The notes under the pieces are model-generated. The model saw only the letters and a program-made list of their open reading frames with translations. It did no database searches and was not told where the DNA came from. A stretch of DNA of 37,225 bases from positions 1 through 37,225 of the IMG/VR virus record IMGVR_UViG_3300025137_000110; one strand, given 5' to 3'. Numbering within the stretch: position 1 is the stretch's first letter; each line of letters begins with the position of its first letter. Of the stretch, positions 402-23,850 are shown in pieces. Both the position numbers and the translations under genes were made by a program. The DNA comes from a virus.

Positions 402-489
402 TGTGCCAATAGTATTAGTGTCACAATAAAAGAGCACAGTGTTCTAAATCATGTATTGTATCAACAGTTCAAACCAATTCAACATCATG
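402..489 (+). repeat. palindromic leader repeat, copy 1
   Basis: TGTGCCA (402-408), ten bases, then TGTCACA (419-425; one mismatch to a perfect arm), followed by ATAAAAGAGCACAGTG and an AT-rich segment with ATGTATTGT and AGTTCAAACCAA leading to the ATG at 487. The same order of blocks recurs at 967, 1529 and in part at 2013. There is no T-run after the stem, so it is not a standard terminator. Confidence 0.85.
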
Positions 490-756
490 ACTGACTTTGT
501 TTGTGTTTATTTTGGTAACGATTGGAGCATAACTGCACGTGGTTTCGCTAACATCGAAGATGCAAGAAAGCATGGATTGTTTATGATGCCAACGCCAGGA
601 TGTTTTGGTTTCGTTGTTATCGTGCAAGGTCAAGGTTTTTGGCAAGTAAGAGAAGATCAAAGTATTATGCCTGATACAATGAAAGTTGAAATGGGTGATT
701 ACAATAATTTTGCAATGAAAACTGTCAAACAATCACAAACAGTAGGTGCACGATGA
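487..756 (+). CDS. hypothetical 89-aa protein downstream of leader repeat
   Basis: The frame is open from an ATG at 451, but that ATG lies inside the repeated leader, which is conserved at DNA level around other genes. The ATG at 487, preceded by CATC as in neighbouring genes, is the likely start. The product (MTDFVCVYFGNDWSITARGF...) has aromatic and hydrophobic strands and a Gly-rich centre (TPGCFGFVVIVQGQGFWQV), suggesting a small beta-rich fold. No family is recognised. Its stop overlaps the next start (ATGA at 753-756). Confidence 0.65.
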   Translation: MTDFVCVYFGNDWSITARGFANIEDARKHGLFMMPTPGCFGFVVIVQGQGFWQVREDQSIMPDTMKVEMGDYNNFAMKTVKQSQTVGAR

Positions 757-953
757 TCTACACTAAAGCACAAATTATCGATGCACTAGTGCGTGAGTGG
801 GATTACCTTTGCCACGATGATTATAATCCTGAAGATGATACTACCGAAGAATATCGTTTGAAATTAGAATGTTATTCAGTGGAGGAATTGATCGAAGAGA
901 CATGCACTGGAGAAGGGTTTAGTTTGGATGATTTTATGGATGTTCATGGATGA
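753..953 (+). CDS. hypothetical acidic 66-aa protein
   Basis: The start overlaps the upstream stop in ATGA, indicating translational coupling. The product is strongly acidic (DDYNPEDDTTEEY; VEELIEETCTGEGFSLDDF) and probably helical. Small acidic early proteins of this sort are common in T4-like cyanophages, but no function can be assigned. It ends just before leader repeat copy 2. Confidence 0.65.
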   Translation: MIYTKAQIIDALVREWDYLCHDDYNPEDDTTEEYRLKLECYSVEELIEETCTGEGFSLDDFMDVHG

Positions 954-966
954 TAAGTTATATCGA

Positions 967-1054
967 TGTGCCAATTGTTTTAGTGGCACAATAAAAGAGC
1001 ACAGTGAACTGATTGATGTATTGTTCTAATAGTTCAAATCAATCTTACATCATG
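967..1054 (+). repeat. palindromic leader repeat, copy 2
   Basis: Perfect arms TGTGCCA (967-973) and TGGCACA (984-990) around a ten-base loop, then ATAAAAGAGCACAGTG (991-1006), then GATGTATTGT and AGTTCAAATCAAT leading to CATC-ATG at 1052. It matches copy 1 block by block. Confidence 0.9.
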
Positions 1055-1219
1055 CTCAAAACACAATTGCTCAAAGTCGTCGGTGAAACTTCAAAGGGCA
1101 TTGATGCTAACCTAACACGAGTTGAAAAGTTTGAAGTATTCTGTCAAGTGTGTGATGGATTACTCCAAGATGGTAGGATTAGTTCTGCTAAACATTATTC
1201 ATGGACGAACGTATTCTAA
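1052..1219 (+). CDS. hypothetical 55-aa protein downstream of leader repeat
   Basis: The frame is open from ATG 1013, but that start lies in the repeated leader; the ATG at 1052 sits in the same CATC-ATG context as copy 1 and is preferred. The product begins MLKTQLLKVVGETSKGIDAN and ends SSAKHYSWTNVF. It appears helical with a mixed charge pattern. No domain is recognised. Confidence 0.6.
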   Translation: MLKTQLLKVVGETSKGIDANLTRVEKFEVFCQVCDGLLQDGRISSAKHYSWTNVF

Positions 1220-1250
1220 CTCTAACTAACATCCAATTCAGGTCTAAATC

Positions 1251-1520
1251 ATGAATTACACTCTCAAACAACTCCAGAACAGAGTATCAAAAATGATTGC
1301 AGAATATGGTGATAATGCACATTGTGCAGCATGGATTTATAGTAAGGAAGATATACATTTATTGGATGAAAATGGTGATATTGATTATGATACCCAATTA
1401 GAGGATTACAAACTAATTGGTGATATCATGGAGGATCTTGGTGATTCAGATTACATTTATTCTAAGATACAAGATCACCTTGATGAGATAACATCAGAGC
1501 ATATCAAGGAGACTAAGTGA
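1251..1520 (+). CDS. hypothetical acidic 89-aa protein
   Basis: Starts MNYTLKQLQNRVSKMIAEYG, with an N-terminal amphipathic helix, then an acidic middle (LLDENGDIDYDTQLEDY) and an acidic C-terminal helix. The net charge is strongly negative. Phage early proteins of this type often bind host proteins, but nothing here shows a partner. The stop is eight bases before leader repeat copy 3. Confidence 0.65.
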   Translation: MNYTLKQLQNRVSKMIAEYGDNAHCAAWIYSKEDIHLLDENGDIDYDTQLEDYKLIGDIMEDLGDSDYIYSKIQDHLDEITSEHIKETK

Positions 1521-1528
1521 TAAGAATG

Positions 1529-1611
1529 TGTGCCAATTGTTTTAGTGGCACAGTAAATGAGCACGGTGTCCTAAAACATGTATTATATAAACAGTTCAAA
1601 CAAAGGCAATG
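1529..1611 (+). repeat. palindromic leader repeat, copy 3
   Basis: Perfect arms TGTGCCA (1529-1535) and TGGCACA (1546-1552), then a variant tail AGTAAATGAGCACGGTG and ATGTATTATATAAACAG, then AGTTCAAACAAAGG before the ATG at 1609. The tail has drifted more than in copies 1 and 2, while the palindrome is intact. Confidence 0.88.
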
Positions 1612-1788
1612 ACTAAAGCACAAGCACTAGAGCAATTCCGTTACAACTGGAAATGTGACACTAAGGGCACAAAAATGGCGACTGATTCTATTGCCAAGCG
1701 TCTGTCATGGTCATATTATACTGATGCACTTTGCAAGGAAGGTTACATCACCATGAAAAAATATGAATCATGGTCTAACCCTTTCTGA
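1609..1788 (+). CDS. hypothetical 59-aa protein
   Basis: ATG at 1609 follows AAAGG at a usable ribosome-binding distance (CAAAGGCAATG). The product is MTKAQALEQFRYNWKCDTKG, then a mixed-charge stretch, ending KKYESWSNPF. The pattern suggests two helices with several aromatic residues. It is the third gene placed directly behind a copy of the palindromic leader. No family is recognised. Confidence 0.6.
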   Translation: MTKAQALEQFRYNWKCDTKGTKMATDSIAKRLSWSYYTDALCKEGYITMKKYESWSNPF

Positions 1789-1829
1789 TCCAAAGTAACA
1801 CTAACTCACCCTCACTATCTAACATCATC

Positions 1830-2000
1830 ATGTCTTTTGTATCTTGGTCAGTATATCCTAAGGGACAACAATTCGATGCAGAGTATTTCACGAGTGAAGA
1901 TCATGCGGTTGATGTTGCTTATTCGTGGAGTGCTGAAGAACATGGAAAGACAATGATTGTAGCACGTAATGAGATGATGTGGATGGAAGTATCCTGCTAA
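1830..2000 (+). CDS. hypothetical 56-aa protein
   Basis: ATG in the recurrent CATCATG context. The product starts MSFVSWSVYPKGQQFDAEYF and ends MIVARNEMMWMEVSC; a central SEDHAVDVAYSWSAEEHGK looks helical, flanked by strands. The layout (aromatic strand, DA-containing helix, strand, W-containing end) resembles the 89-aa protein at 487, so they may be distant relatives. Function unknown. Confidence 0.55.
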   Translation: MSFVSWSVYPKGQQFDAEYFTSEDHAVDVAYSWSAEEHGKTMIVARNEMMWMEVSC

Positions 2001-2012
2001 AAATGTTATCGT

Positions 2013-2053
2013 TGTGCCACAAGTATTAGTGGCACAATAAAAGAGCACAGCAG
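2013..2053 (+). repeat. palindromic leader repeat, copy 4 (shorter)
   Basis: Perfect arms TGTGCCA (2013-2019) and TGGCACA (2030-2036), then ATAAAAGAGCACAG. The downstream leader differs from copies 1-3 and instead leads into CAAGTCAAAGGAA before the gene at 2095, so this is a junction between the two leader types. Confidence 0.88.
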
Positions 2054-2094
2054 TCCATTTTTGCTATTATTCATTCAAGTCAAAGGAACACATC

Positions 2095-2679: not shown

Positions 2680-2840
2680 TCAGTAAACTAATGCAATACA
2701 GGAACGTTTTCACTAATAAAGAATATCATTACGATTCTATAGTTGATCACATAAAGATCCTAGAATCTTCAATCGAGAATTTAGAACAGAAAATGTGTCA
2801 ATTGGAGGAATTAGTAGACAGTTATAAAACTGGCACATGA
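2676..2840 (+). CDS. hypothetical 54-aa coiled-coil-like protein
   Basis: ATGA overlap with the gene before it. The second half (DHIKILESSIENLEQKMCQL) has a heptad-like spacing of I, L and M typical of a short coiled coil. It ends in ATGA at 2837, but the following frame probably uses a later start. Function unknown. Confidence 0.5.
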   Translation: MISKLMQYRNVFTNKEYHYDSIVDHIKILESSIENLEQKMCQLEELVDSYKTGT

Positions 2841-2874
2841 TATGGGATAGACCTGCAAAATGCTGTATTGTAAG

Positions 2875-4340: not shown

Positions 4341-4655
4341 TATGTTCTTTTTGTATAAGGTTTGGTAATGTTAGATAATAACCCTTATTGTCCGGTGTCG
4401 TTGTTACCTTAGCGGTCGCACTATGAGACACCACCGAGACATAATGAGACCCGCTAAGTAACATTCAGTCCCTCACAGTTTTTTCGCCAATTCTATCACA
4501 AATTCTCATAGAATGCAACCCCCAAAGTTCACCAGTATGCGAACACTAAGTGAATGTGACAGTCTACAAAGTGGCATAGACAGTCACACAAACCCCGTGA
4601 GAATCGCCTATACTCGTTGTAACGAACACAGGAGGAATCAGAGACCACTAAGTGA
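4341..4655. other. non-coding structured stretch with inverted and direct repeats
   Basis: No convincing gene. An imperfect inverted repeat pairs 4403-4417 with 4448-4462 (14 pairs, two single-base bulges, 30-base loop). Further on are GACAGTC twice (4558-4564, 4579-4585), the 13-base direct repeat CACTAAGTGAATG (4544-4556 and 4646-4658), a TCGTT-GT-AACGA palindrome near 4614-4625 and an AGGAGGAA near 4629-4637. It could be a leader for the ORF at 4656, a small RNA or an old insertion scar. Confidence 0.55.
4403..4462. repeat. inverted repeat, 14 base pairs with two bulges
   Basis: GTTACCTTAGCGGTC (4403-4417) pairs with GACCCGCTAAGTAAC (4448-4462), leaving one unpaired C in each arm. The loop holds GAGACA and GAGAC repeats. 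No T-run follows immediately; the nearest is TTTTTT about 15-20 bases downstream. Confidence 0.7.
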
Positions 4656-21600: not shown

Positions 21601-23850
21601 TATAACACGAAGAAGAACGAAGTTAGTTCTAATACTGAAATCAAAGCAGAACTCCATGGTTCTAGTGTATCTGGAGTCCGCATCGTTAGTGGAGGTAATA
21701 ATCTGAGTAGTGGTGACAATAAGATGGTCGCTATCAACAACAGCAATGGAGTTGGTATTGTAACTGTCGCATATAGTGCTCCTAATGTTATTGTAACCCT
21801 AAAAACTCCTAATACAGGATTTACTGCAACTAACATTCCGTTTGCAGTTGGTGATAAAGTGTTTGTTGAGAATGTTGGTGTAACTTCTGGTCATGGATAC
21901 AACTCCTCCACGTTTGGATTTGATACCTTTACTCTAACGGCAGTCAATCCGGCTGTCGGTCTTATCGACAAAGCAACAATTACTTATGAGGTTCCTGTTG
22001 ATCCAGGCATATATGATTTAGGGACATTTGGTACAGTTAGTAATGATAAGGACATTGCTAAATTTGAAGTGACTCTAGAAGAAGGTAACTTCTTCAAAGG
22101 TGAGCAAATTATCAATAAGAGTAATTCCAAAACTTCTAGAATTGTCTCTGGGCAAGGAAAAACAAGAAATGTCATTCGTGTCAATAATGTTCGCGGATTC
22201 CAAGTTGGTGACAGCATTACTTCTGAACTATCTGGTGCAGGCGGTACTATTGAAAAGATAGAAACCTTTACTGGAAACTTTGATGTTGATGTGGTTTTCA
22301 AAAAACGTTTTGGTTGGGAAAATTCTGTTGGGGAATTGTCTAACTTCTATCAACGCATTCAAGACAGTGATTACTATCAATCATTCGCATATTCTCTGAA
22401 GAGCACTATTGGTATTTCATCTTGGAGTGAACCAGTTGATGCACTGGCACACATCGCGGGATTCAAAAAACATTCGGACATGTTGATCCCGTCTACTGGT
22501 ATTGGACAAACCTCTACTGTAAGTGTTGGCATAGGAACAATCTCTAAGTCTGTAGTTCTGATTGATACTGAAGACTCGTTGTCTAACGTTCACAACTTTG
22601 ACACTGTTTATGAAGAACCAAACTCAAGTAATACGATTAGTGACAAGATTATTTTCAACTCTAAACGTTTTGGTTCTTCTCTGATCTGCAAATCTAATCG
22701 TGTTCTGGAGATTGATGATATTAGTCCCCAGTTCTATGATGATCCTAATCTCATCAAAGCAGTTGCTATTGATCAGTTTGACACCACTTCTGCCAGTAGT
22801 CCTGTTTGTGTCAAATATTATGCTCAAGTTGTCCTAGATTCTTCTCTAGGAATTTCATACAATGCTACTCAGTATTGTGAGTTTGCTGTCTTTACAGATG
22901 GAACTGACGCATATATCAACCAATATTCTGATCTGTCAGATGCATTTGATTTAGGAGAATTTATTGTAAATCAAAGTGGATCTATTGTTGAAGTTTCATT
23001 TGAACCTTACAATAATACATACACCTACGACATCACATTCTATAAAGAATCAGTTTTGAAAACTCTTGGTGTAGGAAGCACTTCCTATGCCAACGTTGAG
23101 AAAATTGGTGTTAGTTCTGCTTTTTCAGCAACTGGTTCTCCAGCAACTCATACAATTCAAGATATTGATGCATCCGAGTTCAAGTCTGGAACAATTTTAG
23201 TTGTCCATTCTGCCAGTGGTGAAACTGATCTTGAGGAGTATAACTTCTTGGCAAATGGCACTGGCGGAGTTCTGTTCTCAGATTATGGCAACATGAATTC
23301 TGGCAGCACCTTAGGTGATTTTGATCTTGTTCAAAATAGTGGAGTTCTCAAACTCCAGTACACCCCCGCAGCAAACCAAGCAGTTACTATTAGAACTTTG
23401 ACTACATCTGTTGGTGTTGCTACTACTGCTGGACTGAATGTTTCTGAAATTCCTAATCTTAGTGTAGGTGACGCTGAGTTGAATGCTACTCGTACAGCGA
23501 TTGCTGCTACTGGTAGTCCTTCAGCAGTTATTGTTTCTAACAAGGATTATACAAACTATACTTCAGTGAAGTATTTTATTGAAGTGCATAACACCACAGA
23601 TAATGTATATTCAGTGTTCAACGTATCCGCAAATGCATTTGCTGGATATTCAAATTATAACGTATATAATAACCTGTCTAATGCTACTGAAATCAAGCGT
23701 GATATTCGTGCCATAGATATAAACATCAGTGGCAACAATATGCGTTTGCGGTTTACTCCACTAGCAAACAAAGACTACATTGTCAGGGTTTCTGAAATCC
23801 GAATTGACAAACCTGATAACGTCGCAAACGACACAACCATAACAATCTAA
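15616..23850 (+). CDS. 7: giant gp7-like baseplate wedge protein with YHYH domain
   Basis: 2744 aa, against 1032 for T4 gp7. The first 230 residues (SRVKIHEVVQSQIP...FLKQYYISQEFQGG...RQAKDFYRSKGTEEAFKILF) are the conserved cyanophage gp7-type region. The rest is a string of beta modules: EII-Y...TRGFSG segments (about 98-118 and 1498-1545); HGF..GD..VY...YFV...NSF.L units resembling the FCCH-type fold (about 556-608, 794-848, 909-974); and many GG..Y/GxGY segments (near 693, 1052, 1092, 1359, 1901, 1976, 2018). HSPILGWAYDGNPIYGP (about 1175-1195) is a YHYH-domain signature. By gene order it should link wedge and outer baseplate. Which parts contact receptors is unknown. The stop overlaps the next ATG (TAATG). 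Confidence 0.8.
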   Translation: MIETSLSRVKIHEVVQSQIPASIDAENPDFGEFLKQYYISQEFQGGSIDIAENLVEYKGLDFLNNENLIGFTSTTSYRDGAQKTIEVLSTKGWPQRYGLLKINDEIITYTGITTNSFTGCTRGFSGIENNIKTNQPEYLTFSVSGVGTHDTGARVENLSNVFLTQFLKKLKKQVLPGFSERPLHGRVDQSNFIRQAKDFYRSKGTEEAFKILFGALYGEKVEMIQPAKFMIRPSSADYVVNDVIIAKGISGDALKISGESLEQDTSPTKTEGSIYNVESVIVGLSTYYSIAISENTTFGEFQQKNKTFTTIQAPLGAVSLFVDSTVGFGTTGFVNIDDQNLYYSSKSYTKFDLDLPTASVIPIGSAATQGINAKSYENGDLNFPVELEIVGSLSTFNGEAVNQQQGSDINIKTLGVEQDDRRWSSWIYNTAVSYGVLEFISNGANNYNIKLDSDHVLFANDSIEIIDLDNNVIPGTITANISADTITVACSTLTPQTLYKIRRNLKINQQVIADVQNTYSDPHSSVFVASNSIPHWSISPSKRIRNFFTPASATNLIDITDHNLSDGDQVVYENVLGTELTNLSQGESYIVKRINDSQIALAFTPENVRSGQYIQVFSTADIGTSLSGKLTPTIFYGTELGAQKLLRKFNTPEFSSTSAVKTTQGGVGMFVNGVEIYSYKATDKLFYGSLKSVTVLNGGGGFDIINPPRLSSAQVGHTGVGASCIPQMKGTLQEVLVDADDTVGLDYEEVPTVSILGGNHKDVVARAKMKTVPQIIDFDSTTTGGVVNTSTDTFLFSKPHGFVNGDEIIYTTNGTSNIGIGTTPGTLIDSSSYFVKKTNDFSFRLAETKSNALAVNVDIIIPITGSGGGIQRFTSVRKRSRVDEILIEGEGSFHNREITTTSGINTFTNTIHIDNHGFNSGDVVVYSSDVASAGGLSNNSQYFTSKVSDNSFQLTTDKDNKNIISILSPGTGTQTFKDPEIQITISGRQGISTSNTTATPIVRGTVERVFVTNPGTDFGSTVINDNFKPEINTVIGKEAFLQPFIVNGRVDQIIIKSGGKDFFSTPDIIITGDGVGAKAKAIISNGQIISIEMIEKGGNYTQSETTVAAKTPGGDAIYSANLNEWVINQVDRYARFGDVSADDGFYEVTKDSSLGNPYVNYYAPSNLRNYLQDLGNTHSPILGWAYDGNPIYGPVGFSNPNGTGVLAYMQSSYVKLSTQRSNGPSIVDYPAGFFVEDYTYTPGFGDLDEHNGRFTVTPEYPNGVYAYFVTVTSNQISNPGSPFNNGREPLFPYVVGDSYRSQPEVLNLGFNFDQNIDPLKYNLVRNTKNYNINSYNFVSNSQKNTFVQSRIVSTNSGGITSLEIIDGGNEYGVGDRVVFDNSDTDGFGAIAHVSKISGPIISSFTSTINTFPDTTFVYTGGSVTGITTVPHNLVTGTTLRVDDVSSTLHNELEGRRTVTVNSVKSGLSTTINALGVNGGITTSVKLTDDPGKFEIDDILRIDNEQFLVYRIDSARNEIDLIRAQNGTAGVAHTNGARIDRLERKFTFGLENCDSTPTDDRIYFDASSQLGIGASIGQGEVHTITDQRILGAGGSRDIPKGSIFLPNHQFSNGEKIAYNYDNSTAIQYLTAGVGTASGWSASLPETLFVQVIDNNLVGVVTMQNQISSSSNRALFYSNIGIGNTHSFTSVRGKITGSIQITDVTATTKDPHTLRPGDQIDMNIVSTGTSSIALTYNPGNRFVSIGSSSNPKVTVIDGDLLEFDMADASLINTKLGFYLDQSYQKSFVGSGKSNIEVLYNGVPGSAGAKASVHFTPEIPRTLFYKLESFDNTKIIEIDDSIDDYTKIVVTQSDFTSKSSISSVTSNTFKFNIFENPERVGYTSVTADINYTTTSKNEKGPIANVLLVSKGARYKDLPQVTIGSTTGTSALLRASGSNIGKLDTVEIIQSGYDYPSDKTLRPEAEMPQVIFLKDNFTVSNVAITSTGKNYLIGPDLIIYNTKKNEVSSNTEIKAELHGSSVSGVRIVSGGNNLSSGDNKMVAINNSNGVGIVTVAYSAPNVIVTLKTPNTGFTATNIPFAVGDKVFVENVGVTSGHGYNSSTFGFDTFTLTAVNPAVGLIDKATITYEVPVDPGIYDLGTFGTVSNDKDIAKFEVTLEEGNFFKGEQIINKSNSKTSRIVSGQGKTRNVIRVNNVRGFQVGDSITSELSGAGGTIEKIETFTGNFDVDVVFKKRFGWENSVGELSNFYQRIQDSDYYQSFAYSLKSTIGISSWSEPVDALAHIAGFKKHSDMLIPSTGIGQTSTVSVGIGTISKSVVLIDTEDSLSNVHNFDTVYEEPNSSNTISDKIIFNSKRFGSSLICKSNRVLEIDDISPQFYDDPNLIKAVAIDQFDTTSASSPVCVKYYAQVVLDSSLGISYNATQYCEFAVFTDGTDAYINQYSDLSDAFDLGEFIVNQSGSIVEVSFEPYNNTYTYDITFYKESVLKTLGVGSTSYANVEKIGVSSAFSATGSPATHTIQDIDASEFKSGTILVVHSASGETDLEEYNFLANGTGGVLFSDYGNMNSGSTLGDFDLVQNSGVLKLQYTPAANQAVTIRTLTTSVGVATTAGLNVSEIPNLSVGDAELNATRTAIAATGSPSAVIVSNKDYTNYTSVKYFIEVHNTTDNVYSVFNVSANAFAGYSNYNVYNNLSNATEIKRDIRAIDINISGNNMRLRFTPLANKDYIVRVSEIRIDKPDNVANDTTITI

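Follow-up and report, generated by a model that had tools for sequence, protein, structure and literature searches.

In the middle promoters of T4, which depend on MotA and AsiA, the MotA box lies near –30. For T4-like cyanophages, work on Syn9 and P-TIM40 by Doron et al. in 2016 (ISME J) reportedly described a novel early-gene regulatory element, unlike that of T4 and conserved within the group. No alt, modA, motA or asiA gene occurs in cyanomyoviruses, whose control of early and middle transcription was considered unknown in a 2010 review (PMC2984593). PeSL cassettes (early promoter plus stem-loop) of T4-like phages are attributed to Arbiol 2010 and Comeau 2014 in PMC4503421, and few PeSLs were found in S-PM2 by Puxty et al. 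(PMC4503421). Additionally, NtcA and Pho boxes have been predicted in cyanophages (PMC3037559).

The stretch of DNA analysed here (the window), a virus record 37,225 bases long, is a fragment of a T4-like cyanophage and is most closely related to T4-like phages of Synechococcus and Prochlorococcus. On its minus strand, between 5245 and 12207, a gene pair coding for a protein of 263-272 aa and a sulfotransferase-like one of 328-331 aa occurs twice in tandem; a third relative of 297 aa (recognized by eye) and a carbamoyltransferase (PF16861/PF02543) follow, and of the three sulfotransferase-like proteins only one approaches the Pfam cut-off. A sequence-only reading of the window had claimed four copies of a 24-bp dyad, TGTGCCA-N10-TGGCACA, and a pattern search recovered all of them where they had been placed (Table 1), copies 2 to 4 being exact and copy 1 carrying one mismatch (TGTCACA). 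With up to three mismatches allowed, seven matches were found in the window versus an expectation of 1.5 from 100 shuffles (sd 1.3, maximum 5). Two sites beyond these four were also identified, listed as the fifth and sixth operators in Table 1, and the matches at 22428 and 29908, both within long structural ORFs, are probably due to chance.

Copies 1 to 3 had been described as alike up to the start codon, which agrees with the 82% (copy 2) and 78% (copy 3) identity to copy 1 across 88 nt reaching the start codon region; for copy 4 the figure is 66%. The tail ATAAAAGAGCACAGTG, claimed for all four copies, is in fact exact in copies 1 and 2 only, copy 3 having GTAAATGAGCACGGTG and copy 4 ending in ...GCACAGCAG. 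The genes behind the copies were said to differ, and they do, except for those behind copies 2 and 3, which both belong to phrog_336 and are distant paralogues (alignment z = 7.9), suggesting that promoter-gene cassettes were duplicated there. With a probability of roughly 0.78, the copies are control regions of phage promoters, at each of which a dyad bound by a dimer would activate host sigma-70-type RNA polymerase.

Table 1. Coordinates of the operator and predicted promoter features in the window.
Feature	Position	Strand	Source or remark
Dyad operator, copy 1	402..425	+	pattern search and PWM; one arm mismatch
GAGCAC at –35 position, copy 1	432..437	+	16 bp upstream of –10
–10 hexamer TATTGT, copy 1	454..459	+	ahead of gene 487-756
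Dyad operator, copy 2	967..990	+	pattern search and PWM
GAGCAC at –35 position, copy 2	997..1002	+	
–10 hexamer TATTGT, copy 2	1019..1024	+	ahead of gene 1052-1219 (phrog_336)
Dyad operator, copy 3	1529..1552	+	pattern search and PWM
GAGCAC at –35 position, copy 3	1559..1564	+	
–10 hexamer TATTAT, copy 3	1581..1586	+	ahead of gene 1609-1788 (phrog_336)
Dyad operator, copy 4	2013..2036	+	pattern search and PWM
GAGCAC at –35 position, copy 4	2043..2048	+	
–10 hexamer TATTAT, copy 4	2065..2070	+	preceded by TGC; ahead of gene 2095-2349 (phrog_500)
Sixth operator, distal half worn (GTAGACAGTTATAAAACTGGCACA)	2814..2837	+	relaxed scan
–10 hexamer TATTGT of the 2814 site	2866..2871	+	
Fifth operator, TGTGACA-N10-TGGCATA (TGTGACAGTCTACAAAGTGGCATA)	4555..4578	+	pattern search and PWM
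–10 hexamer TATACT of the 4555 site	4609..4614	+	

The position of the dyad relative to a –10 hexamer is nearly invariant. In copies 1 to 4, the hexamer begins exactly 51 nt past GTG, the offset at the 2814 and 4555 sites being +51 and +53, that is, within 2 bp of the four copies, and the best –10 was located at +51 to +53 from GTG in 275 of 299 distinct sites. A scan of viral contigs with GTGCCA-N7-TAGTGGCACA-N-TAAA yielded at least 118 stretches, which, when stacked, display the palindrome, about 28 nt, a –10 hexamer (TATAAT, TATTGT, TATATT or TATTCT) and then the start codon. Such a constant distance between dyad and –10 is what the dyad operator of a sigma-70-type promoter requires, and the palindrome forms the upstream portion of a predicted promoter. 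The GAGCAC found at the –35 position is a poor match to TTGACA, and a plain sigma-70 scan of the region did not detect these promoters, returning 19 matches versus 19.6 by chance; therefore, the promoter call rests on conservation, and the chance-level scan fits dependence on an activator. If transcription is assumed to start 7 nt past the hexamer, the dyad would be centred at –52.5 (–54.5 at the 4555 site), and the palindrome would thus lie outside the mRNA under its control. In S-SSM7, the sites either overlap the stop codon of the gene upstream or come after it, mostly 65-92 nt ahead of the next start.

Single dyads with a properly spaced –10 on both sides were also observed in P-SSM2 (66591-66614) and P-HM2 (39292-39315), which may be divergent promoters with one common operator. 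Separately, some viral contigs among the matches listed (L025, L033, L035, L036, L064, L068, L082, L097 and L116) carry TATAAT and a dyad with longer arms (TTAGTGTGCCA...TGGCACACTAA), the GAGCAC region being absent.

It had been proposed earlier that the element could be either an RNA-processing or translation-control leader or a binding site for a dimeric regulator common to several genes, and the variation among sites points to the second. Covariation was assessed in 99 sites taken from stretches fetched whole and picked irrespective of the dyad centre. Each half-site accepts C or G at position 6 (mirror position 15), and the 6/15 combinations were CG 41, GG 19, CC 18 and GC 9, so distributed that complementarity was 0.51 observed versus 0.50 shuffled (z = 0.1); at positions 3/18, 29 of the 99 sites are non-Watson-Crick (z = 0.8). 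The arms, for which covariation had been suggested as a check, vary independently, and the half-sites are constrained separately rather than through base pairing. This absence of hairpin-type covariation argues for a DNA operator read by a dimer and not for an RNA leader; non-covarying arms had been named as grounds against the element as a whole, but they refute the RNA reading only, leaving the DNA-operator reading unaffected.

An RNA leader, in which the palindrome and GAGCACA would form mutually exclusive mRNA hairpins controlling processing or translation, could account for the complementarity of the arms within each copy and for the good fold of copy 4. Nevertheless, it is hardly tenable, since in addition to the missing covariation transcription is predicted to start past the palindrome and GAGCACA occupies the would-be –35 box and is replaced in many relatives. 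RNA fold z values for copies 1 to 4 were –2.2, –1.0, 0.1 and –4.8, with a preferred fold that varies among copies and with copies 2 and 3 folding no better than shuffles, and an Rfam scan returned chance snoRNA matches only and no relevant family. In agreement with the earlier remark that the element has no T-run and is not a standard terminator, no stem followed by a T-run, as expected for a PeSL or rho-independent terminator, was found at any window copy. The hairpin or terminator reading was dropped, as covariation, T-run and spacing are all against it.

The search of related cyanophages that had been recommended revealed that the element recurs. The composite of dyad, 28-32 nt and TAnnnT was found in 12 of 21 named cyanomyoviruses, versus none of the 21 for the reversed pattern. 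When the distal arm was allowed to wear, the relaxed composite gave 99 matches versus 0 in the control in twelve sequences, which include the ACG-2014d and ACG-2014g stretches. These two phages had seemed devoid of the site under the strict pattern, but the relaxed scan gave one site per 20-kb stretch examined, and one ACG-2014g promoter has a variant proximal arm (AACTGGACAA). PWM matches versus those of the reversed control, some palindromes being scored on both strands, amounted to 18/1 in S-SSM7, 22/0 in P-SSM2, 11/0 in P-HM2, 14/0 in S-PM2, 20/0 in S-SRM01, 4/0 in Syn9, 5/0 in S-T4, 3/0 in S-RSM4 and 2/0 in Syn33. Sites in Syn9 lie at 48558, 51000, 52996 and 127492. In S-SSM7 and P-SSM2, the majority of sites fall in the interval from the helicase gene to the gp25/gp6 baseplate genes, which is occupied by small unknown genes, as seen in the window too. 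Most likely, the element fronts promoters of small genes in many marine and freshwater cyanobacterial viruses.

Absence from equivalent places in related phages, which would have weakened the proposal, is not what is seen, as the element precedes homologues of the genes starting at 1609 and 2095. For gene 1609, it stands ahead in most relatives having that gene, namely in L147 (record G005), L088 and L090 and, with variant arms, in Syn9, Syn33, ACG-2014g and L101; for gene 2095 (phrog_500), it stands ahead of relatives in S-T4, L115, L059, P-SSM2 and S-SSM7, and homologues of gene 487 are preceded by it in L088 and L112. Among gene 1052 homologues, it is kept only in L072, the nearest relative, and is absent in Syn33, ACG-2014d and ACG-2014g, where the gene sits behind other genes. 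These predicted promoters are thus gained and lost between relatives across related strings of genes. Such turnover, the extension of similarity into the leader in copies 1 to 3 and the paralogues behind copies 2 and 3 are compatible with a recombination module, similar to a PeSL-like cassette boundary, conserved through gene shuffling with regulation secondary. This is very improbable, because distant phages retain only the dyad and its spacing with no flanking identity, which is expected from binding and not from homologous recombination.

For the favoured promoter reading, the following mechanism may be proposed. A dimeric, sequence-specific protein would bind the 24 bp of the dyad (consensus TGTGNCASTT-N4-AASTGNCACA), which is centred about 52.5 bp before the predicted start, with its proximal half-site ending beside the –35 position. 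Because the –10 is kept but the –35 is poor (GAGCAC), the dimer on the dyad is proposed to stand in for the –35 contacts and so activate transcription of the one or two genes behind each copy. Many small genes of the hypervariable region would be coordinated in this way, probably early in infection, by a regulator that may be phage-coded or virion-borne.

Two observations bear on the sign of this regulation. Among worn sites, those with the proximal half intact and the distal half worn are somewhat commoner than the reverse, background being allowed for. Additionally, a terminator-like GC-rich hairpin with a T-run is found between dyad and –10 at P-SSM2 53915, S-SSM7 39336 and S-SRM01 50173, where the –10 spacing is kept and no room is left for a –35 box. 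Retention of the proximal half and a –35 region filled by a hairpin would mean that the bound protein does the work of the –35, hence activation fits best. It could instead be supposed that a phage protein on the dyad acts as a repressor, shutting the promoters once early transcription has served, as strictly spaced dyads suit repressors too. Repression is nonetheless rather unlikely, considering that the dyad lies upstream of the –35 instead of covering the –35 and –10, that the –35 is non-consensus, that a promoter working unaided could hardly afford the terminator seen in some phages, and that the proximal half is the one retained somewhat more often.

No candidate survived the search for the regulator in the phages, and no widely conserved DNA-binding regulator was found there. 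The best co-occurring gene, GC66 (phrog_1987), is present in 7 of 8 site-rich versus 2 of 13 site-poor named phages, and it was rejected as regulator because Syn9 and the G005 record have sites but lack this gene, and because no PDB entry matches its predicted fold (pLDDT 73). GC66 is itself often behind the site in many phages, and both it and phrog_500 genes have the site in several phages; it is more likely a regulated gene than the regulator. GC321 (phrog_385), annotated as "transcriptional regulator", was also set aside, having no Pfam domain and no structure match.

The lack of a conserved phage regulator, together with the fact that host factors are already present when infection starts, would suit a dyad read by a host transcription factor recruited by the phage. 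On the other hand, the 24-mer, even at 3 mismatches, was absent from 174 of 201 genomes of the picocyanobacterial Synechococcus WH7803 family, WH7803 included; the composite occurred in 2 of these 201, and a stricter form gave two matches in 300 picocyanobacterial genomes, both within one mobile island. The sites in host chromosomes that a host regulon implies are therefore too scarce, which makes a host regulon unlikely and a phage-borne regulator likely. Several imperfect 24-mers (TGTGTCAGTTTGATTAGTGGCACA and similar) were noticed in a few host genomes (G023, G146, G162 and G104; L264-L271, L276-L279), mostly without the –10 spacing, and two of them flank an HTH-antitoxin/PIN-like gene pair beside restriction-like genes, as named by eye.

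The integrative island with both stricter matches occupies about 113626-130033 (16.4 kb) of G044:C1 (L272, L273, L387, L388), at a tRNA-Ser gene, with a GC content of 0.39-0.51 versus about 0.7 and with 13 bp of the tRNA 3' end repeated at its borders, 113626 and 130021. One of its cyanophage-type operator-promoters stands ahead of a tyrosine integrase (TAAATT at +52) and the other is placed at the head of a leftward operon that encodes a type IIG restriction-methyltransferase (TATAGT at +53); a Sak-like annealing protein (weak match) and an Ig/PKD-type protein are also encoded. That two exact composite matches should fall within 14 kb, in a single genome, when roughly 660 Mb were searched, is hard to credit to chance. 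It may tentatively be suggested, as a possibility with less than even odds, that the island senses the phage activator, either as a phage satellite or as a defence element triggered by infection. Were the site to respond to a phage regulator, infection would switch on the island, and an operator in a host island would suggest that mobile elements may eavesdrop on infection. A 24-mer with fixed geometry and many copies in marine and freshwater phages also provides a handle on the missing regulator, both as pull-down bait and as a predictor of co-regulated orphan genes.

Compared with the systems introduced above, the present element is probably the early-gene element of Doron et al. or a form of it; that element is reported to be conserved among T4-like cyanophages, and the present one is likewise present in Syn9 and numerous relatives. 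The predicted promoters resemble PeSLs in their compactness and in their location between small hypervariable-region genes, with a terminator merged in some phages, but the conserved palindrome is here an operator at a fixed distance from the –10 and not a terminator stem. As in the MotA/AsiA middle promoters of T4, a phage-type box would replace the –35 while the sigma-70 –10 is kept; however, a 24-bp dyad at –52 differs in geometry from the MotA box, and these are not MotA-dependent middle promoters. Finally, like the NtcA and Pho boxes, the dyad would be an upstream activator site of cyanophage promoters, although GTA-N8-TAC and CTTA-N7-CTTA do not resemble TGTGNCA-N10-TGNCACA.
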